DNA from: an uncultured Pseudomonadota bacterium
Lineage (GTDB): Bacteria > Pseudomonadota > Alphaproteobacteria > RUG11792
Length of the DNA: 34,888 nucleotides
Direction of reading: 5' to 3'
Assembly: GCA_902796345.1 (NCBI GenBank)
Contig: CADBOF010000002.1
Location: 1-34,888, forward strand
Below, one piece after another: positions 970 to 34,888 of the stretch (positions are counted from its first letter, which is position 1; every line of letters begins with the position of its first letter). A program made the translations under genes and the position numbers. The notes below the pieces were generated by a model. It did no database searches. It saw only the letters and a program-made list of their open reading frames with translations, and had not been told where the DNA came from.

Positions 970-1081
970 TTTTAACCCTTTAAAATAAGAACCTTTTTTT
1001 TGGATACCTTAACAATCATTAATTTTTGGTTAAAAATTCGTTAACGATTATGCACTATCGGTGGTTTTTTTGTTAACAAGT

Positions 1082-1112
1082 TGTTGATAACCTGTTGATA
1101 ACCTGTTGATAA
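1082..1112 (-). repeat. Three tandem DnaA-box-like 9-mers, reverse orientation
   Basis: TGTTGATAA (reverse complement TTATCAACA) occurs at 1082-1090, 1093-1101 and 1104-1112, an exact 11-bp period with CC between units. The 36 bases at 1079-1114 are inverted-complementary to 1307-1342 with one mismatch. The 9-mer differs from the classical DnaA box TTATCCACA at one position. Confidence 0.9.
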
Positions 1113-1286
1113 CTTTGCAAGAAGAACATTTTTTGATAAGTCTGTAGATAATATTTATCTAAAAAAAGATATATCTTGTTTTGTAAAAAATAAGTCTTTT
1201 CAAATTAAATTAACTGTAACTTGCCGACTTCCACCCAAAAGCGAATCCCCCGAAAAAATCTACCTCAACGAGAATATTCAAAAAAG

Positions 1287-1350
1287 TTATCAACAAGTTA
1301 TCAACAACTTATCAACAGGTTATCAACAGGTTATCAACAACTTATCAACA
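1287..1350 (+). repeat. Six tandem DnaA-box-like 9-mers, forward orientation
   Basis: TTATCAACA occurs at 1287, 1298, 1309, 1320, 1331 and 1342, an exact 11-bp period with two-base spacers (AG, AC, GG, GG, AC). All copies point the same way and face the three reverse copies about 175 bp to the left. One turn of the helix per unit puts every site on the same DNA face, as expected for a cooperatively assembling protein. Confidence 0.92.
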
Positions 1351-1517
1351 GGCAAAAGTCTTATATTCCAATATGTTGAAGGCATTATTGTCATATTTTT
1401 TGCGGACACAACAACAACAATATATATATAAATAAAGAGAAAAAATTCAAAATATGCGTAACCAAACTTTAATTTCGAAGTTGTAAATTTAGCTAAGTAT
1501 GTGCTAAAAACTCGTAA

Positions 1518-2657
1518 ATGAATTTTTCAAACTATTTTTTTAGAGAAGAACCAGAGTTATTTGCTCCAGTTGTTTTAGGTATTGGAATACTAATTGGAGT
1601 AAATTACCCAAATTGGCAAATACCGTTATGTATACTAATAATAGCATTTATTTTTTATAGGAATAAACTTTGGCGTAATACGATACTATTATCAATTTTG
1701 GGGTTTTATATTGCACAAACAGGAGGGATTTTTAAAACTGAGTTATTAACAAACAAAAAATATATAACAAAAGAATATACATTACTATTTGAAGCAAATG
1801 TTAAGTATATAGAAGACACTCACCCGATAATGAAAAATATGCGACGAATTATTTTCGAAAACATAAAATTTAAAAATAACAAATTGGATTTTATAAGGAC
1901 AACTAAAATGACGTGTGCACAAAAAACAACTGAAAATATAAATCCAGGTGACAAGGTATCAGTTTTTGGGCGTATTATGCCTTTTAAACAAGCGGTAGTA
2001 CCATTCTCATTTAATCAAAAACAGTTCTATACATTGCAGGGATTAGATGCAACTGGAATTGCTTTTAAAATTTCAAAGACTAAAACATCTGATCGTAAGA
2101 ACGTTTTCAATAGTTGGCGACGCAATTTAACCAAAAATATAATTGCCAAACTTGGCAGTATAACAGGAGGAATTGCAAGCGCATTAATAACAGGCGATAA
2201 ATCGTCAATACCTGCAAACGTTAGAGATGTATTTATAAAATCAGGAACGGCTCATATTCTCGCAATTTCAGGACTACACATGAGTCTTGTAGCGACTATT
2301 ATATATTTATGCCTTCTTAGAATATGTTTGTACATAAGTCATTTTTATTTAAAAATAAATCCACAAAAAGTGACATCAATTTTAACGATTTTACTGACAG
2401 GATGTTACTTAGCACTGTCCGGTTTTTCTCCTTCTGCTGTAAGAGCATACATGATGACATCTACGGGATTTATTGGGTTAATGTTCGGGCGTACAGTAGT
2501 CTCAATGAGGAATGTATCATTCGTTGCGTTTTTAATTCTATTAGTTGATTCTGGAGCGTTATTTTCAATAAGTTTTCAGTTGTCGTTTAGTGCTGTTGTT
2601 GCATTAGTTGCGTTTTATGAACGCTTTGGAAATATTTTTAAAAAAAATATACTCTAA
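1518..2657 (+). CDS. comEC: ComEC/Rec2-family DNA-uptake channel, N-terminal part (frameshifted)
   Basis: ComEC forms the inner-membrane channel that passes single-stranded DNA into the cytoplasm during natural transformation. This 379-residue frame holds the N-terminal membrane anchor and soluble segment (DUF4131-like, about residues 10-195), then the Competence domain, recognised by ILAISGLHMSLV starting at residue 247 and by several hydrophobic helices. The frame ends abruptly after a run of eight A (2640-2647), where homology continues in the +1 frame of the next entry. Taking one base out of that run would give a single protein of about 619 residues. There is no clear ribosome site before ATG 1518. 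The gene may be a recent pseudogene, may be rescued by polymerase slippage on the A-run, or may reflect a sequence error. Confidence 0.85.
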   Translation: MNFSNYFFREEPELFAPVVLGIGILIGVNYPNWQIPLCILIIAFIFYRNKLWRNTILLSILGFYIAQTGGIFKTELLTNKKYITKEYTLLFEANVKYIEDTHPIMKNMRRIIFENIKFKNNKLDFIRTTKMTCAQKTTENINPGDKVSVFGRIMPFKQAVVPFSFNQKQFYTLQGLDATGIAFKISKTKTSDRKNVFNSWRRNLTKNIIAKLGSITGGIASALITGDKSSIPANVRDVFIKSGTAHILAISGLHMSLVATIIYLCLLRICLYISHFYLKINPQKVTSILTILLTGCYLALSGFSPSAVRAYMMTSTGFIGLMFGRTVVSMRNVSFVAFLILLVDSGALFSISFQLSFSAVVALVAFYERFGNIFKKNIL

Positions 2658-3378
2658 AAGATTAATAGTAAGAATTATGATATATTTGCTGTCATCTTTA
2701 ATAACAACAATTATTGCAACAATAGCAACAACTCCAATATCGATTGCAACATTTAATAGACTAAGTTTATGTGGAGCAGTTGGAAATGTAGTAACAATTC
2801 CTATTGTTTCGTTCTTCATAGTACCGATAGGTTTGTTATGCCTAGTAACTTTAGGTAATATCGCGTGGCTATTAAATTTATTTTCGTTCTGCGTCAATGA
2901 GTTAGTTACATTTTTAACTTTTTGTTCAAATTTACCTTATTCAGACATAACAATCAAATCTCCACATGTAAATACTGTGTATATTATAATAATGGGCGGT
3001 ATTATTTTGTGTTTATGTAAAACAAAATTACGACACGTCGGTACATGTTTATCAGCTATTGGTTTTGTAATATGGAATTTTGAACAAAATCCAGTATGTA
3101 TAATTTTGCCAGAACAACAAATAATATGTTTCGTTCAAGATGAAAAATTTTACACAACGGCAAAAGGTAAAGGACGAAATCTTGTCAGTTCTATACAGCG
3201 TAATTTGGGTTTTTCGGGGCGTGCAAAACGTTTTCAGCTTGATTGGACATCTATACCTCAAGAATTTAAAAGGCACCCTCAGGGGTGCTTTATTTGGAAA
3301 AATGGCACAGTTAAGACTCTAACCGTCCCATTACATCCGTATGCTCCAGCGCAGTACACGTGTGCATATTCCAAATAA
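2617..3378 (+). CDS. comEC: ComEC/Rec2-family protein, C-terminal part (frameshifted)
   Basis: This frame continues ComEC after the shift near 2640-2647. It carries about four more hydrophobic helices, including a segment beginning LSSLITTIIATIATTPISIA, then a soluble tail ending with FIWKNG and a Pro-rich terminus. I see no HxHxDH metallo-beta-lactamase motif, so the zinc-hydrolase domain found in some ComEC proteins is absent or unrecognisable. The FIWKNG end resembles the short tail of alphaproteobacterial ComEC, so the 3' end looks natural and the frameshift is the only visible lesion. The first in-frame ATG is 2617, but independent translation is doubtful because true homology probably starts around 2648. 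The next gene, ybaB, converges from the other strand. Confidence 0.75.
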   Translation: MNALEIFLKKIYSKRLIVRIMIYLLSSLITTIIATIATTPISIATFNRLSLCGAVGNVVTIPIVSFFIVPIGLLCLVTLGNIAWLLNLFSFCVNELVTFLTFCSNLPYSDITIKSPHVNTVYIIIMGGIILCLCKTKLRHVGTCLSAIGFVIWNFEQNPVCIILPEQQIICFVQDEKFYTTAKGKGRNLVSSIQRNLGFSGRAKRFQLDWTSIPQEFKRHPQGCFIWKNGTVKTLTVPLHPYAPAQYTCAYSK

Positions 3379-3488: not shown

Positions 3489-3803
3489 TTAAAACAATCC
3501 TGGAATTGATATTCCGCCGGTTATTGCGGACATTGCACTTTCAGATGTTTTGTCTGCTTTTGTTTTTGCATCGTTAAAGGCTGTTAAAATCAAATCTTCT
3601 AACATTTCTTTATCGTTCGGATCGATTACTTCGGTTTTTATCGACACAGCTTTTAAATTACCAGTCGCAGACATTCTTATAATAACAGCATCATTACCAG
3701 CAGAGCCTATAACTTCAGTGTTTTTTAAATCTTCTTGTACACGGCTCATTTCGGTTTGCATTTTCCTCGCCTGAGATAACAAGTTGTTCATATTTGGGGT
3801 CAT
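3489..3803 (-). CDS. ybaB: YbaB/EbfC-family nucleoid-associated protein
   Basis: This 104-residue protein matches the small DNA-binding YbaB/EbfC family: an N-terminal helix with QARKMQTEMSRVQEDL, a central beta segment (VIIRMSATGNLKAVSI) and a C-terminal helix with LILTAFNDAKTKADK. The family forms dimers that bind DNA and bulk the nucleoid, and it is often next to dnaX and recR. Here it is instead the last gene of the rpsP-rimM-accB-accC-pgeF run, 16 bases after pgeF. Start ATG 3803-3801 is the most upstream one; ATG 3791 (MNNLLSQ) is possible. Neither has a clear ribosome site, so translational coupling to pgeF is plausible. Confidence 0.9.
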   Translation of the reverse strand: MTPNMNNLLSQARKMQTEMSRVQEDLKNTEVIGSAGNDAVIIRMSATGNLKAVSIKTEVIDPNDKEMLEDLILTAFNDAKTKADKTSESAMSAITGGISIPGLF

Positions 3804-3819
3804 TGGAAATCTATGTAAT

Positions 3820-4554
3820 TCATATATTTTTCATCATTATACCTGAAAATTGTACACCATTTCGTGATGATGTTTTATTACAATTCTCATTAACAAATCG
3901 TCTATAACTAAAAAAATTATTGTTTTCAAAAGTATTGATATTTAAATCTTCAAAATTAATGTTTTTCATTGTATTGTACAAAAAATCTTTAAGGTCAAAT
4001 ACGTTGTTACCGTCAAAAAATTTTCGATACTCCTGAGGAACATCGTTTTTACTAAGAGTTGTTTTATGAATAAAAGCACCTGATGCAATTGTTAAATTTT
4101 CACATCCCAAATTACGCATACACGTTAATGCTTCTGTTAACATTCTTTTAAAAGCCCCACGCCATCCGCAGTGAATTGTAGCGATATATTTTTTATGATT
4201 ATCGTACATAAGCAGCGGTATACAGTCTGCCGTATAAACCCCTATTAAAATTCCTGGAATATTTGTAACTAATCCATCACCTGCTATTTGATCGTTTTGA
4301 AAATCTGAAATATTATCTTTCGTAATAACATGTATCGTTGTACTATGCACCTGATTGAGAGTAATTAAATTTATTGGTTTAATCCCAAAATACGTTGCTA
4401 TTTTTTCACGATTTTTAAAAGCATTTTCATCGCCCCTGTCAAGACCTACATTTAACGATTTGAATGAGCCAGTACTGTAACCATCGGTTCTATCAAAAAA
4501 GCCGTATTGTATATTTTCAAACTGTGATAAATTCTTTACTTTATATATATTCAT
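3820..4554 (-). CDS. pgeF: PgeF/YfiH-family purine nucleosidase (peptidoglycan editing factor)
   Basis: This 244-residue protein has the family's metal-site signatures: NQVHSTTIH with His70, YTADCIPLLM with Cys111 and IHCGWRGAFKRM with His128. Characterised members (old DUF152, multicopper-oxidase-like or LACC1-like) act on purine nucleosides. E. coli YfiH/PgeF prevents misincorporation of serine in place of alanine in peptidoglycan precursors. The later Gly-Pro-containing segment usual in the family is replaced by an IASGAFIHKTTLSKND-like stretch, so that part looks degenerate although the His/Cys/His triad is intact. The start ATG 4554 lies 4 bases after the accC stop, so coupled translation is likely. 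Confidence 0.88.
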   Translation of the reverse strand: MNIYKVKNLSQFENIQYGFFDRTDGYSTGSFKSLNVGLDRGDENAFKNREKIATYFGIKPINLITLNQVHSTTIHVITKDNISDFQNDQIAGDGLVTNIPGILIGVYTADCIPLLMYDNHKKYIATIHCGWRGAFKRMLTEALTCMRNLGCENLTIASGAFIHKTTLSKNDVPQEYRKFFDGNNVFDLKDFLYNTMKNINFEDLNINTFENNNFFSYRRFVNENCNKTSSRNGVQFSGIMMKNI

Positions 4555-4558
4555 AAAA

Positions 4559-5899
4559 TCATACTGTTTTTATGTACTTCTCAAGCCAGTGTATATCAAA
4601 CTGACCGTTTATTATGTCTTTATGTTTTACTAAATTCTTATGCAAATCTGCAGTTGTATTTATTCCATCAATTACTAGTTCATCTAATGCTTGAGCAGAT
4701 TTCATAAGACATAAATGCCGTTCTGAAGAATGTATTATAACCTTAGCTACCAAGCTATCATAATACGGAGGAACAGTATATCCACGATGTATGTGAGAAT
4801 CTATGCGTACTCCATTTCCTCCAGGAAAATATAGCTCTTCAATTGTTCCAGGACATGGCATAAAAGTTTTCGGGTCTTCCGCGTTTATTCGAAATTCTAT
4901 TGCATGACCTGTTATTTTGATATCTTCTTGTCTAAATGAAAGTTTTTCACCTGAAGCAATACGTATTTGCTCCTTAACAATATCAATGCCAGTAATTTCT
5001 TCTGTTACGGAATGCTCAACCTGTAACCTTGGATTAACTTCCATAAAGTAAAACTTTCCATTATCATAAAGAAACTCGACTGTTGCAACACCGACATACC
5101 CTATTTGACGAAGCGCGTTTGTAACGAGTTTTCCCATTGTTTCACGTTCTTCTTGCGTTATTGCTGTTGATGGAGCTTCTTCCATAAGTTTTTGATTGTT
5201 ACGCTGTATAGAACATTCACGCTCTCCTAAAGACACAACATTACCAAACTTATCAGCGATTACCTGAAACTCTATGTGACGTGGATTTGTAAGATATTTT
5301 TCAAGATATACACGATCGTCACCGAAATTTGCTTTAGCCTCTGATTTTGCAAGGTTAAAGTTTGATTTTAGATATTCATCATTCCAAGCAACTTTCATGC
5401 CTTTTCCTCCACCACCTGATGAGGCTTTTAAAATAACTGGATAACCAATTTTTTCTGCAATTTCCAACGCTTGCGCTAAACTTTCGAGAACCTTTGCTGA
5501 ACCATTTACTGTTGGAACTCCGAAACTTTCCATTGTATGTTTTGCAGTTATTTTGTCGCCCATCATTGTGAGGTGTTCTGAGCTTGGACCTATAAACGTT
5601 ATTCCATGGGCTTCAACAATTTTTGCAAAGCTTGCATTTTCTGATAAAAATCCAACTCCCGGGTGTATAGCATCAGCACCTGTTATTTCTGCTGCACTCA
5701 GTATTGCTGACATATTTAAATAACTGCTTGTTGCTTTGTTATCCCCAATACAAACACTTTCATCAGCAAGTTTTACATGCATTAAGTTTTCATCAACAAC
5801 CGAATGTACAGCAACAGTTTTAATTTCTAATTCTTTGCATGCACGTAACACTCTTATTGCAATGTCGCCTCTGTTGGCAATCAATATTTTTTGCAACAT
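4559..5899 (-). CDS. accC: Biotin carboxylase subunit of acetyl-CoA carboxylase
   Basis: AccC carboxylates biotin on AccB using ATP and bicarbonate, the first half-reaction of fatty-acid synthesis. The 446-residue length is normal. The N-terminal fold opens with KILIANRGDIAIRV, the ATP-grasp glycine loop SGGGGKGMK sits near residue 161, and the catalytic segment EVNPRLQVEH keeps the Arg and Glu used in catalysis. A usual GYGFLSEN segment reads GVGFLSEN (Val82), a mild change. The ATG overlaps the accB stop by one base (TAATG), so AccB and AccC are translationally coupled. The carboxyltransferase genes accA and accD are not in the window. Confidence 0.97.
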   Translation of the reverse strand: MLQKILIANRGDIAIRVLRACKELEIKTVAVHSVVDENLMHVKLADESVCIGDNKATSSYLNMSAILSAAEITGADAIHPGVGFLSENASFAKIVEAHGITFIGPSSEHLTMMGDKITAKHTMESFGVPTVNGSAKVLESLAQALEIAEKIGYPVILKASSGGGGKGMKVAWNDEYLKSNFNLAKSEAKANFGDDRVYLEKYLTNPRHIEFQVIADKFGNVVSLGERECSIQRNNQKLMEEAPSTAITQEERETMGKLVTNALRQIGYVGVATVEFLYDNGKFYFMEVNPRLQVEHSVTEEITGIDIVKEQIRIASGEKLSFRQEDIKITGHAIEFRINAEDPKTFMPCPGTIEELYFPGGNGVRIDSHIHRGYTVPPYYDSLVAKVIIHSSERHLCLMKSAQALDELVIDGINTTADLHKNLVKHKDIINGQFDIHWLEKYIKTV

Positions 5900-6474
5900 T
5901 ATTCTATTACCAAAAGTAGTTGTCCAAATTCTGTTGGCTGAGCATCTTCAACAGCGATATATACTATTTTTCCATCTTTTGGGGCTTTTATATAATTCAT
6001 AACTTTCATAGCTTCAATAATGAGGAGTGGCTGATCTTTTTTCACAAAATTTCCAACTTCAATAAATTTTGGAGCACCCGGTTCAGGTGACAAATAACAT
6101 GTGCCAACCATGGGGGATTTTATAGCTCCTGGATGTTTTGAATAATCGGTATGTATTGCTTTTTTGTTTGCTGAGGAGCTAGTAACGTCGGGAGCTTGAG
6201 GAATACTAATTGATGGAGAAGTAGGATTAATCTGAGGTACAATTACAGATTGTGATACACTTCCAAACGGAGATGGTTGGGATGCTGGAACGCTATTAAT
6301 TGGCTGAACATTTGTTTGAGCGACAACTTTTATCTCTACTTCGTTCGTTTCGTACTTTATCTCTGCAAGATTGTTATCTTTTAATATTTTGACTATTTTT
6401 TTTATATAAGAGACGTCGGGATTTTTATCACATTGTTTGTTTTTTGCTTTAATTGCTGTTTTGTTTTTGTTCAT
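5899..6474 (-). CDS. accB: Biotin carboxyl carrier protein of acetyl-CoA carboxylase
   Basis: AccB carries the biotin that shuttles carboxyl groups between AccC and AccAD. The 191-residue chain has an N-terminal helix region (to about 50), a Pro/Ser/Gln-rich flexible linker (about 55-100) and a C-terminal biotinyl domain with EAMKVMN, where Lys157 is the biotinylation site. It is longer than the E. coli protein because of an extended N-terminus rich in Lys and Asn and a longer linker. The start ATG 6474 has only a weak purine-rich site before it. The gene lies 84 bases after rimM and overlaps accC by one base. Confidence 0.95.
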   Translation of the reverse strand: MNKNKTAIKAKNKQCDKNPDVSYIKKIVKILKDNNLAEIKYETNEVEIKVVAQTNVQPINSVPASQPSPFGSVSQSVIVPQINPTSPSISIPQAPDVTSSSANKKAIHTDYSKHPGAIKSPMVGTCYLSPEPGAPKFIEVGNFVKKDQPLLIIEAMKVMNYIKAPKDGKIVYIAVEDAQPTEFGQLLLVIE

Positions 6475-6558
6475 TAGCTTATACCGACAGATTGATTACT
6501 ATCCGATGTTATCAAAGTGAGAGTAATGCATCAAACTGAATTCAATCTAATAAAAAGA

Positions 6559-7083
6559 CTAAACAAGAATATAATTTTTGTTCACAATAATTCTCGAATG
6601 CTGTAAATTTACTGTTACAACAGAATTTTTATTAAAAGGTATGGTTCCAATCTTGTTGTCTTCAGTCCTAATTTCCAAGAATGAGCCAGCTCCATAGTCT
6701 AATACCGCTCGAACTTTTCCTAAAAGTAATCCGAATTCGTCGTAGACATCCAGGTTTTGTAAATCTTCAAAATAATATTCCCCTTCATCTAGTGGAATTA
6801 GTTGTTTGCGATCTATGTACAAATTTTTTAGACGATACTTTTCCAAAACATCATGCTTTTCAATTCCTTTTATCGTACAAGAAAATTTATCTTGTTCAAT
6901 GTGTTTTAGATTACTAAATTCGATATTTTCACTTGTGTTTTCTCCTGTATATATTATGAATTTTGACAATTTAAGAAATTCGACAGGTGATGACATAAAG
7001 GAACGTACCTTTACCGCTCCTTTTATGCCTATCGGTTTTAAAATTTGACCGACAAGTAATATCCCTTTGTTGTAATCCGACAC
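6559..7083 (-). CDS. rimM: Ribosome maturation factor RimM
   Basis: RimM helps mature the 3' (head) domain of 16S rRNA with ribosomal protein S19. The N-terminal RimM fold (LLVGQILKPIGIKGAVKVRS) and the C-terminal PRC-barrel with YYFEDLQNLDVYDE and DYGAGSFLEI are clear. I chose GTG 7083-7081, giving 174 residues. It sits one base after the rpsP stop and has AAGGAA at 7093-7088. An upstream in-frame GTG at 7116 would overlap rpsP by 32 bases and add eleven atypical residues. The usual downstream partners trmD and rplS are missing; accB follows instead. Confidence 0.93.
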   Translation of the reverse strand: MSDYNKGILLVGQILKPIGIKGAVKVRSFMSSPVEFLKLSKFIIYTGENTSENIEFSNLKHIEQDKFSCTIKGIEKHDVLEKYRLKNLYIDRKQLIPLDEGEYYFEDLQNLDVYDEFGLLLGKVRAVLDYGAGSFLEIRTEDNKIGTIPFNKNSVVTVNLQHSRIIVNKNYILV

Positions 7084-7084
7084 G

Positions 7085-7435
7085 TCATTCCTTAGACGCT
7101 GAAGCTTCTGCGTCACGCGCCATGCGTTCTTGAGCTTTTTTCTTAGGAGCTGACTTTTTTGGACGGTTTGGAATTACAGGAGCATCACATAATCCTCTTG
7201 ATGCTAATAATTTTTGAACCCGTTCCGTCGGCTTCGCACCAACAGACAACCAATATTTTGCTCGTTCATCTTTTACAACCAAACGTTCTGGATTTTCTGA
7301 AGAAAGAAGAGGATTGTAAAAACCAAGTTTCTCAACGAATTTACCGTCTCTAGGAGCCGTATTTTCTGCAACAACAAGACGATAGAAAGGTCGGTGTTTC
7401 GAACCGCCGCGGGCTAATCTTATTCTTAAAGCCAT
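7085..7435 (-). CDS. rpsP: Small ribosomal subunit protein bS16
   Basis: S16 binds 16S rRNA early in 30S assembly. The chain starts [19 protein letters not shown] and continues with [22 protein letters not shown], both diagnostic. At 116 residues it carries a basic and then acidic C-terminal tail ([19 protein letters not shown]) beyond the conserved core of about 80 residues, a common alphaproteobacterial extension. It is the first gene of the leftward cluster and is probably transcribed from the promoter predicted at 7469-7497. Confidence 0.97.
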
Positions 7436-27322: not shown

Positions 27323-28807
27323 ATGTTTTTCAAAAAAATGTTTATAAAAAAAATAGGTTTAATATTAATTTCGTTTTGTATATTAACGGTAAGCAATGAT
27401 TTATTAGGAACAGAGACAAAAGGTGAAGATTTAAATTTTTTAGCGGACAAAAATAGTGATGTTTATAAATGTGTTAGTTACAATATAGATCAAAATATAA
27501 ACATTGCGTCGGATTTGTATGGTAAAAATTATTGGGCATACAAAGCTATTACAGATAGAGAGGATCCTTTTTATTCCTCGATTGAGATTTTAAAACAAAT
27601 AGTTACTTTCATGTACAAATACACGATAAAAGAAAAGTGTTGTGTTTCGGATAAAATCAACATAACACTTTTTTTTACTAAGTATTTTGTCAACGGCTTT
27701 TTTGACGATTCAACGAGCGAAATTGACGGTAATGATTATTCAAGCAAATCGTTAGATGATCCGGTAATAAAAAGTATATTTGGAAAGATAAATTTTTTAT
27801 CGGTGTTTTATGGTATTTATTTTTGTTTTATACGTAACGAATATAATTTCGAAAAGGTTTGGAAATTGAGTATACGAGAAGTAGATAAAGAATTAAAATT
27901 ATCAAAATTACAATCAGGAATGAGTTTGTATGAATATCTGGTTGCAAAATTTAACAATGAACAAGACTTTAAAAACTACATAAAACATGATTGGATGTGT
28001 TATTTACAACAATTTAATGTATTATTTTATAATAAATGTGAGGTAATGCAGAGTATTTATAATAATAGCGTGTGTGGAAAGCTATTATCGTTGTTTTATT
28101 GTAATCTTAACCAGATTAAAATTTTTGAAGCAAAACTCAGGTATGTAAACTATTTTAATCTCAAACAGATGGCAAACCATCTTTATAACGAACAAAAAAA
28201 CAAAAATGGAAATTGTAATAAAGAAGCTTTGTTATTAGAAAAATTCAGGAAAGATGTTAGTAGCTGTAAAGAATTTTGTTTTAAGTATAATGAACTACTA
28301 CAAAAACACGGTTTTTATGATAGTGTATATAAAATTAATAACAACGACTACGATTTTGATTATATTTTTGTATTAAAAGAACTTCGTGAGAATAATAAAG
28401 ATAAAGCGTTTTCTTCTGACGAGTTCTTGAGTATTGCTGAGAAATCAATAATTTTTACAAAAAAACTGATTGATGAAGGAATTTTGATAAATACGGAATC
28501 CCGACTTTATGGAAATCCAAAAGTGATATTTAAAATTATGTGTGAATTAAAAAATTTTAAGCCTTATAAAAAAACACTTACTGTATTTTATCAGTTATTT
28601 AAAAGGTTTAGTGAGCTCCAATTAACTAATGTCTTTCCTTCTGTGGTAAGAAACATAGTGTTTTACTTGTTGCGTGGTACAAATAAATCGATAGAAGAAC
28701 TTGCCGACTACACAAAACGGAAAGATGCGTTTAGAACAACAAAAGATTTTTCAAAACTTATCGATGAAGAAGAAATAAAAAAATTTTTTGAGCCCTCGAA
28801 CAATTGA
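27323..28807 (+). CDS. Exported hypothetical protein, 494 residues
   Basis: I do not recognise a family. ATG 27323 has GAGG six bases upstream. Residues 1-29 are a signal peptide: Lys-rich start, hydrophobic core IGLILISFCILTV, cleavage near residue 29. The mature chain is rich in Asn, Lys, Tyr, Phe and Cys (about 15 Cys), with predicted helices and no clear transmembrane segment. Landmarks are KHDWMCYLQQF at 221-231, EVMQS at 240-244, AKLRY at 270-274, FNLK at 278-281, KHGF at 328-331 and ENNKD at 356-360. Similar landmarks occur in the two edge proteins (1-969 and 33104-34888), suggesting a family. The base composition is clearly more AT-rich than the ribosomal genes upstream. It has its own promoter elements and looks monocistronic. 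A secreted host-interaction protein is possible but unproven. Confidence 0.85.
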   Translation: MFFKKMFIKKIGLILISFCILTVSNDLLGTETKGEDLNFLADKNSDVYKCVSYNIDQNINIASDLYGKNYWAYKAITDREDPFYSSIEILKQIVTFMYKYTIKEKCCVSDKINITLFFTKYFVNGFFDDSTSEIDGNDYSSKSLDDPVIKSIFGKINFLSVFYGIYFCFIRNEYNFEKVWKLSIREVDKELKLSKLQSGMSLYEYLVAKFNNEQDFKNYIKHDWMCYLQQFNVLFYNKCEVMQSIYNNSVCGKLLSLFYCNLNQIKIFEAKLRYVNYFNLKQMANHLYNEQKNKNGNCNKEALLLEKFRKDVSSCKEFCFKYNELLQKHGFYDSVYKINNNDYDFDYIFVLKELRENNKDKAFSSDEFLSIAEKSIIFTKKLIDEGILINTESRLYGNPKVIFKIMCELKNFKPYKKTLTVFYQLFKRFSELQLTNVFPSVVRNIVFYLLRGTNKSIEELADYTKRKDAFRTTKDFSKLIDEEEIKKFFEPSNN

Positions 28808-33103: not shown

Positions 33104-34888
33104 TTACTTTTCATAGAAGGTGATAGGCGGAACCTCGCTTTGATTACCTTTATCGCTGTCGTTTTTGATAAATACATCAATAAAATCGTCTTCATTGTTA
33201 CTTTTTTTAACCGCGTCCAATTGCATTCTTATCATCCTGTTAGATACATAATTTGAGACGGCATAGTCACAGCCTCGAAAATTTTTGTATTTCGAAAAAT
33301 ATATATTATTTTTCCTTATCAAATATTCTGCAAGTTTTGACATTTTTTCAAAATCCTTTGTATACTCCTTTAAGTTATTTGATAATAATATTGCTATGTC
33401 AGTGTCAATATTATTTTCATATAATGTTTTTGCAAGCTTTTCTATATTCTGTGTTGGCTTGTCGTCACTGGGAAGTTTAAAACCGTATTTAATTGCGGTA
33501 TCTTTTAAATCTTTTAAGATTTCTGCTAAAAGTGAGTTTTCAACATATTGCAAAGCGACGTTTTTGTTAATAGCTATTTCTTCTCCGTTAAGAGCTTTTT
33601 TACGGGGATTTTTTATAAGACTATAAGTTAATTCGCAAATTCTTTCTATATCTCTTTCGTAACGATACTTTGCATTTTTTAAAGTATATTCAAGTAATCC
33701 GTTAAATTCACCTATGTCTAACCTCTGTGAACGAATTTTTTGTACTAGATCGTAAATAAAATTCATTTCGAATTGTTCAACCTTTGCAAATTTGTGTATC
33801 GTATTGTATATGAGGTTTACGTCGGTAACAATGTCTAACTGAAAAATTCTCCAAAGTTTCGGTTGACTATCGTCTTGAGCAAAAATATAATCATTAATGT
33901 CTTTTAATATTTTTGTTACAAGTTGATTTATTGAGCTGAAGTCCTGTTTTGGTTTCTCGTCTAACAAGTTTTTCAAAATATAGTGAACGCTGTCGGTACC
34001 CATAGCTAATACGTCTTGGATTTTTTTATTATCTTGAATAGAATGTTGTTTTTTAAACTCATAGCAAATGTCTAAATATTTGTTGATAACTGTGTAGAAT
34101 ATCAAAACCTTTTCATTTATTGAAAGTTTGTTTAATGATACTTTTTCAATAGTATTAGTCAAGTTCCATACTTCAGAAAGAATTTTTGGTGAAAAAAATG
34201 GTAATTTTTGTAAGCCTTCCTGGATCTCTTCGTACACCTTGGCATTTGTGAGATCGTTGAATTTTGTCGCATTTGTAGTATTAAGATGTTCATCTATTTT
34301 TTGTAAAATCTTCTGTGCATGTATGTCTATTTCATCGTTGCATTTGTTAAGTTCTAGCGCAAAATTACTGACCTGTTCATATTCTTTGGGTTCGTTGAAC
34401 CATTCAGAAGAGCTTAACTGTTTATTAATAGAATTGGCTCTTTTATCAAAAATATTTTTTGCTTTATCTTCTGAACTAATATTTTTGTGTTCTGAATTAA
34501 CATTTTTTGTACCATGTTTCCCAAAGTCAGTATTGTTATATAAAACCTTTTCACTGCTATCTAACTCTATGGGTTCATCTGACCATGAAACGGTTTTGTG
34601 TTCTTCATTTTTCTCACTTTTAATTTTTTCTTTAATTTTGTTGATGTTTTCGTTTTTAATTTCGTTGGTATTATTGTTTTCATTGGAGTTTTCTTGATTA
34701 TTGGAGTTGTCTTGATTATTGGAAGTGTCTTGTTCTTTTTCATCTCTTTCAGAGTTAACATCTCTTCTTAAAATTTCTTTTTCTTGAACCTTTCCAACAA
34801 TGCTTTTGATATCATTACCATTTTTATTTTTAATATCACAAATAACGCCGAATTGAGTTAAATAACAATCCCAATCGTGTTTTAAAAA
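33104..34888 (-). CDS. Asn/Lys-rich hypothetical protein, N-terminus beyond right edge
   Basis: The leftward frame has no stop from base 34888 down to the stop at 33104, so at least 594 residues are encoded and the start is outside. A GTG at 34237 would yield only the C-terminal 377 residues and is probably not the true start. Near the right edge, KHDWDCYLTQF (34850-34882) matches KHDWMCYLQQF of the protein at 27323-28807. It is followed by a linker rich in Asn, Glu, Lys and Gln, including three six-residue repeats (34682-34735), then a helical region. Toward the C-terminus AKYRY (33659-33673), KYGF (33479-33490) and YENNID keep nearly the same spacing as in the 27323 protein. No known domain is recognised. 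It was probably exported like its relative, but the signal region is not visible. Confidence 0.8.
   Translation of the reverse strand, partial: FLKHDWDCYLTQFGVICDIKNKNGNDIKSIVGKVQEKEILRRDVNSERDEKEQDTSNNQDNSNNQENSNENNNTNEIKNENINKIKEKIKSEKNEEHKTVSWSDEPIELDSSEKVLYNNTDFGKHGTKNVNSEHKNISSEDKAKNIFDKRANSINKQLSSSEWFNEPKEYEQVSNFALELNKCNDEIDIHAQKILQKIDEHLNTTNATKFNDLTNAKVYEEIQEGLQKLPFFSPKILSEVWNLTNTIEKVSLNKLSINEKVLIFYTVINKYLDICYEFKKQHSIQDNKKIQDVLAMGTDSVHYILKNLLDEKPKQDFSSINQLVTKILKDINDYIFAQDDSQPKLWRIFQLDIVTDVNLIYNTIHKFAKVEQFEMNFIYDLVQKIRSQRLDIGEFNGLLEYTLKNAKYRYERDIERICELTYSLIKNPRKKALNGEEIAINKNVALQYVENSLLAEILKDLKDTAIKYGFKLPSDDKPTQNIEKLAKTLYENNIDTDIAILLSNNLKEYTKDFEKMSKLAEYLIRKNNIYFSKYKNFRGCDYAVSNYVSNRMIRMQLDAVKKSNNEDDFIDVFIKNDSDKGNQSEVPPITFYEK
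34682..34735 (-). repeat. Three 18-bp coding repeats (Asn/Gln/Ser hexapeptide)
   Basis: Units at 34682-34699, 34700-34717 and 34718-34735 are 18 bases each. The first two differ by one base and the third is more diverged. On the coding strand they encode variants of a six-residue Gln-Asp/Glu-Asn-Ser-Asn-Asn unit in the low-complexity linker, a place where copy number may vary between strains. Confidence 0.85.

Follow-up and report, generated by a model that had tools for sequence, protein, structure and literature searches.

A region at about positions 1019 to 1436 of the DNA we analysed (a stretch of 34,888 nucleotides, here called the window) very probably serves an uncultured alphaproteobacterium as oriC, the origin of chromosome replication. 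Judged from its sequence, DnaA would bind here and replication would start here. A preliminary description had proposed a candidate replication origin at this place. The proposal is supported by the uniqueness of the box cluster, its conservation in the genus despite a change of neighbours, the presence of the same arrays at dnaA in other phyla, a layout like that of known DNA unwinding elements, and the local divergence of genes and skew around the site. Of the marks of an oriC, we find here the densest box cluster of the genome, an adjoining AT-rich element and conservation independent of gene content.

Two facing arrays of one 9-mer

Nine copies of the 9-mer TTATCAACA lie between positions 970 and 1517, three on the minus strand and six on the plus strand, at a start-to-start distance of 11 bp (Table 1). 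Their number, identity and exact period had been described before and are borne out by the coordinates and by TRF, which recovers both 11-bp arrays. The gene-free gap indeed measures 548 bp, from the start of the left gene at 969 (minus strand) to the start of comEC at 1518. It is AT-rich, with a GC content of 0.14 to 0.48 in 50-bp windows, and not AT-only. The two arrays are approximately inverted repeats of each other; the earlier figure of 36 bases with one mismatch gives way to 46 nt at 87% complementarity or 32 nt at 94%. Across the window there are 11 matches to TTATCAACA, against a mean of 0.86 and a maximum of 5 in 100 shuffles, none of which reached 11. Every one of the nine boxes has A instead of C at position 6, as do the boxes of both sister species, so that none fits the canonical DnaA box TTATNCACA, which has C there. 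An Rfam search of the window matched no families.

Table 1. Features in and around the proposed origin (window coordinates).
Feature	Position	Strand	Basis
Left neighbour, N-terminus resembling a signal peptide, open at contig end	1-969	-	Translation
Two overlapping TTAA-N7-TTAA motifs, candidate CtrA sites	1019-1033, 1030-1044		Pattern match, weak
Degenerate unit TGTTAACAA, in 11-bp register with left array	1071-1079	-	Direct-repeat family; same TGTTAACAAGTTGTTGATAA in G002
Left array, three TTATCAACA DnaA boxes	1082-1090, 1093-1101, 1104-1112	-	TRF; kept in G001 and G002
Inter-array spacer, 174 bp			1113-1286		Near-boxes TTATCAAAA 1131-1139 (-) and TTATCTACA 1143-1151 (-)
Right array, six TTATCAACA DnaA boxes (starts 1287, 1298, 1309, 1320, 1331, 1342)	1287-1350	+	TRF; kept in G001 (4) and G002 (5)
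Conserved linker, starts GGCAAA, ends in T tract and TGCGGA (1401-1406)	1351-1407		Three-species alignment
Trinucleotide repeat, ACAACAACAACAA on plus, TTGTTGTTGTTGT on minus	1408-1420	-	Conserved in genus; position where other origins have DnaA-trios
Proposed DNA unwinding element, TATATATATA (1421-1430) and following AT-only bases	1421-1436		Alignment
Right neighbour comEC, two overlapping frames (1518-2657, 2608-3378)	1518-3378	+	Pfam Competence, NCBIfam ComEC_Rec2

The genome is assembled to 747,058 bases in 43 contigs and is 97% complete. It holds 53 copies of TTATCAACA, 9 of them in the arrays, and nowhere else are two copies separated by 2 bp. When perfect and one-mismatch boxes are scored in a sliding frame of 350 bp, the array site reaches 20 and the runner-up 6. 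The preliminary description would have given up the origin if similar arrays or a better box cluster lay elsewhere; we searched the assembly and found neither. We also considered a genome-wide excess of TTATCAACA and dropped it: a maximal-order Markov model predicts 50.7 copies and 53 were seen, and the comparison is weak since the model includes the arrays.

A pair of TTATC(A/C)ACA boxes spaced by 2 bp occurs in 8 of 397 other Pseudomonadota genomes, none with more than one pair, and in 6 of 301 genomes of a Chloroflexota sample, where the centre genome, picked for its array, is among the matches. The three-box pattern occurs in 1 of 392 genomes of the G058 phylum sample, again with the centre genome, picked for its array, among the matches. 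No 2-bp-spaced pair was found in family genomes outside the genus, the sister genus G006 has no box array in 575 kb of its genome, and sister genera yielded no recognisable origin.

Conservation and competing readings of the site

The two facing arrays recur in both other genomes of the genus, G001 and G002, with one copy in each of the three species, and every array box is TTATCAACA. The arrangement is 3+6 boxes around 174 bp here, 3+5 around a 175-bp gap in G002 and 4+4 around an 18-bp gap in G001. The neighbours of the G002 arrays resemble those of the window, with a similar N-terminus to the left and a ComEC-like frame to the right (both by eye). G001 has different genes on both sides: a BspA-type leucine-rich protein to the left and a type II/IV secretion ATPase to the right. 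That the element persists while the genes around it change fits an origin better than a promoter region.

We then looked for three TTATCAACA boxes with 2-bp spacers in 84,980 species, which gave 30 loci. In half of them (15) dnaA lies in the same 8-kb locus as the array: 12 Poribacteria, Orenia, a Eubacteriaceae MAG and a Bacilli MAG. The presence of identical arrays at dnaA in other phyla makes it very likely that TTATCAACA is a real native DnaA box in several lineages and not private to one. It has also been mentioned as a possible box in phytoplasmas and on the linear chromosome of Cyanothece. Arrays of Anaerolineae and Dependentiae have no dnaA within the examined stretch. Four Anaerolineae/Chloroflexi MAGs (L134, L135, L138 and L148) carry 12 TTATCAACA boxes over ~380 bp in one pattern, likely a conserved origin, and their DnaA has N433. 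In Dependentiae and relatives (L136, L141, L123, L124, L151) the arrays face each other, as in the window, and in most of them AT-rich DNA with trios of the TAA/TAG type lies outside one of the two; these facing arrays are the probable oriC of Dependentiae. We sought a skew minimum at the facing arrays of one Dependentiae contig and did not find it. The Eubacteriaceae MAG (L145) has about 18 TTATCAACA boxes flanking dnaA on both sides, with Q423 and Y434 in domain IV of its DnaA.

DnaA also acts as a transcription factor. The true origin could lie elsewhere, and this could be a DnaA-titrating or reactivating site (datA- or DARS-like) or a promoter region under DnaA control; it sits between two divergently transcribed genes, and dnaA is on a different contig. 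We consider this improbable. The left neighbour in G001 is not only different but aimed at the array, the 97% complete assembly offers no other box cluster to be the origin, a conserved AT and trinucleotide element stands beside the array, and identical arrays are found at dnaA in other phyla.

A second reading, an origin of plasmid or phage type integrated into the chromosome, or iterons bound by another initiator, is very improbable. Perfect tandem repeats do look iteron-like, and the three-box pattern is present in seven viral contigs, one of them with phage genes. However, the contig carries housekeeping genes, among them the cluster for ribosomal proteins, and the window proteins that were scanned include neither a Rep nor an integrase. 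There is one copy of the element in all three species, and its unit is a DnaA-type 9-mer found at dnaA elsewhere. Among the viral contigs, IMG/VR contigs L152 to L156 have 4 to 5 tandem TTATCAACA at 2-bp spacing before a short gene (6560-6612 in L156), and L156 has a terminase and Pam3-like phage genes; such phages may borrow or titrate host DnaA. A functionless tandem repeat made by replication slippage, which the perfect short units and the differing box numbers of the species would allow, is just as improbable: the 9-mers stay identical on both strands in three species while their 2-bp spacers vary (AG, AC, GG, AT), which argues for selection on the 9-mer.

The comEC gene is split at window positions 2600-2660 near an A-rich run, by a frameshift, a pseudogene or an assembly error. 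The ribosomal cluster is transcribed away from the site, as had been described, but an intervening block (3489-7435) runs the opposite way. Long reading frames without a Pfam match lie at 27323-28807 and 33104-34237.

A proposed unwinding element, strand asymmetry and a proposed mechanism

Next to the right array, at the side of its ACA box ends, GGCAAA, a short stretch containing G/C, ACACAACAACAA and TATATATATA are common to all three species. The combination of the repeat with TATATATA occurs at one place in the whole genome; the minus strand of the G002 element reads TATATATATTGTTGTTGTTGTGTCGTGGAAAAAATTGTTGATAA. The order, repeat and then TATATATATA, is also that of unwinding elements beside Dependentiae and Poribacteria arrays. 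The sequence at L123, a Dependentiae-like locus, is TATATATAATAATAATAATAAGCAGACGTTTTTTTGTGGATAAC; at L129, a Poribacteria locus next to dnaA, the plus strand has TTATCAACAGCCCCTACTACTACTACTAAGG.

DnaA-trios are recognized as at least three NAN trios, with a central adenine, on the box-proximal strand; the repeat here is TTG and does not have this form. In the BUS of Bacillus subtilis, a DnaA box is followed by a G/C-rich spacer and DnaA-trios (PMC8287927). A box lies within ~16 bp of the repeat in G002, where the linker holds an extra TTATCAACA box at 47900. The window and G001 have degenerate sequence there, and in the window 57 bp separate the repeat from the nearest perfect box, more than the usual BUS spacer. 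When the central adenine of the B. subtilis trio was changed to T or G, growth was poorer and initiation less than after a change to C (PMC10721633), and deviant trios without central adenine were suspected earlier (PMC8287927). Alternatively, the TTG repeat could correspond to the E. coli-type TTGT motif (PMC5742627). The DnaA of B. subtilis contacts the central adenine through Asn187; the DnaA proteins of the genus have Tyr at the aligned position. Tyr or Phe at this place is general among sampled alphaproteobacteria, and the Tyr may be a property of the whole class.

Gene orientation and strand-controlled GC skew tend to diverge from the array. Coding sequence to its left is mostly on the minus strand (28.7 vs 12.3 kb in G002, 7.8 vs 4.8 kb in G001), and to its right mostly on the plus strand (24.0 vs 5.8 kb in the genome of the window, G000; 4.6 vs 1.0 kb in G002; 1.4 vs 0.7 kb in G001). 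Intergenic skew is -0.05 to the left in G002 (p=0.02), -0.07 to the left in G001 (p=0.09) and +0.135 to the right in G000 (p=3e-6), and fourfold sites in genes that oppose the presumed fork deviate from the genome mean as expected (p=0.003 and 0.04), all p values being taken over neighbouring sites that are not independent. The skew is local, given a fragmented assembly of 43 contigs with only 1 kb left of the array in the window contig, and in G001 it is weak and partly carried by gene orientation. The strand asymmetry agrees with an origin at the array.

We propose that two facing head-to-tail DnaA oligomers would form on the arrays, with one protomer per 11-bp unit. The boxes of the right array have their ACA ends toward the right, and the right oligomer would act on the adjoining AT element. 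It would open TATATATATA and capture the minus strand carrying TTGTTGTTGTTGT, leading to helicase loading. CtrA, acting at the left edge, may influence these steps. The TTAA-N7-TTAA pattern occurs six times in the AT-rich window; one of the 1019-1044 motifs is present in G002, and none is near the G001 array. Away from this site, the genome encodes a CtrA homologue. Its best NCBIfam match is CtrA (313 bits, below the cut-off of 350), its receiver matches solved CtrA, and it is the only Trans_reg_C protein found.

The initiator protein and comparison with known origins

The genome has one intact dnaA, on another contig (TIGR00362, 464 bits). In E. coli numbering its product has Y422, S423, N431, N433, S435, I438 and Y439. 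The preliminary description had suggested a possible lineage-specific DnaA specificity, an idea that holds only in part. The D433N change is present here, but the sister species share Y422, S/A423 and N431 and keep D433, and such arrays are also found in Poribacteria, Dependentiae, Anaerolineae, Eubacteriaceae, a Bacilli MAG and Orenia. D433N as the sole cause of A at position 6 is thus out, as the boxes of G001 and G002 are the same although both genomes have D433. Loss of P423 is out as well: Chloroflexota and G811 with TTATCCACA pairs are also without P423 (Fisher p=0.66).

DnaA proteins of genomes with the arrays depart variously from P423/D433/L438. Readable genomes with TTATCCACA pairs have D433 and L or M438, and P423 is often lost. 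A changed 433 or I/V438 is found in 8 of 11 TTATCAACA lineages vs 0 of 8 TTATCCACA lineages (p=0.003), a count in which the positions were picked after inspecting several, and the lineage grouping is our own; I438 occurs, too, in family members with D433 and P423 to which no box type is assigned. Exceptions are Orenia (both box types), Paludibacter and Sphaerospermopsis (no dnaA near the array). The count is suggestive of a link between a changed 433 and/or I/V438 and TTATCAACA arrays. Residues 433 and 438 have been assigned to box position 7 (PMC8235120), and a role of theirs in reading position 6 is therefore our inference.

It is conceivable, although we would not favor it over its negation, that origin and initiator changed jointly in the genus. 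Domain IV would prefer A over C at position 6 (via ~422-423, 431, 433 and 438), and domain III would capture TTG in place of central-adenine trios; several phyla would have made the position-6 switch independently, via few residues such as N/S433 and I/V438. The gathered loci allow the reading of box position 6 by DnaA to be studied as a natural experiment, and the extreme regularity of the arrays makes them a clean substrate for studies of DnaA oligomer assembly. Origin searches usually use TTATNCACA, so origins built from TTATCAACA would score poorly. A wild origin whose trio position lacks the central adenine would be the case suspected in PMC8287927.

As far as sequence can tell, the site is ordinary in function and distinctive in form, departing from the strict box consensus and from the strict trio rule. 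The oriC of E. coli combines boxes of different strength, strong or weak, around TTATNCACA. It resembles the region described here in having two facing sets of boxes, some with 2-bp spacing, and an AT-rich unwinding element outside (PMC10316083), as well as TTGT motifs on the strand captured by E. coli DnaA (PMC5742627). The boxes here, in contrast, are a uniform 9-mer with A at position 6. The E. coli origin has a well-defined IHF bend between its boxes. The likeness to the BUS lies in the succession of box, short G/C-containing stretch, trinucleotide repeat and AT-rich DNA, and is clearest in G002; the difference is a TTG repeat, lacking the central adenine, in place of TA(A/G) (PMC8287927, PMC10721633).

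The arrays of Poribacteria and Dependentiae have the same 9-mer and 2-bp spacing, and those of Dependentiae face each other ~100 bp apart. They differ in having canonical TAA/TAG-type trios, and most Poribacteria ones adjoin dnaA. These phyla are unrelated to ours, so the resemblance is probably convergence. With the oriC of Caulobacter and Rickettsiales the region shares an intergenic location of ~400-550 bp apart from dnaA and AT-richness, to which candidate CtrA sites and a putative ctrA gene in the genome may be added (PMC1914354). The usual neighbours of an alphaproteobacterial oriC are hemE and COG1806 (PMC1914354), whereas here a secreted-looking protein and comEC adjoin, and the DnaA boxes are far more numerous and uniform.
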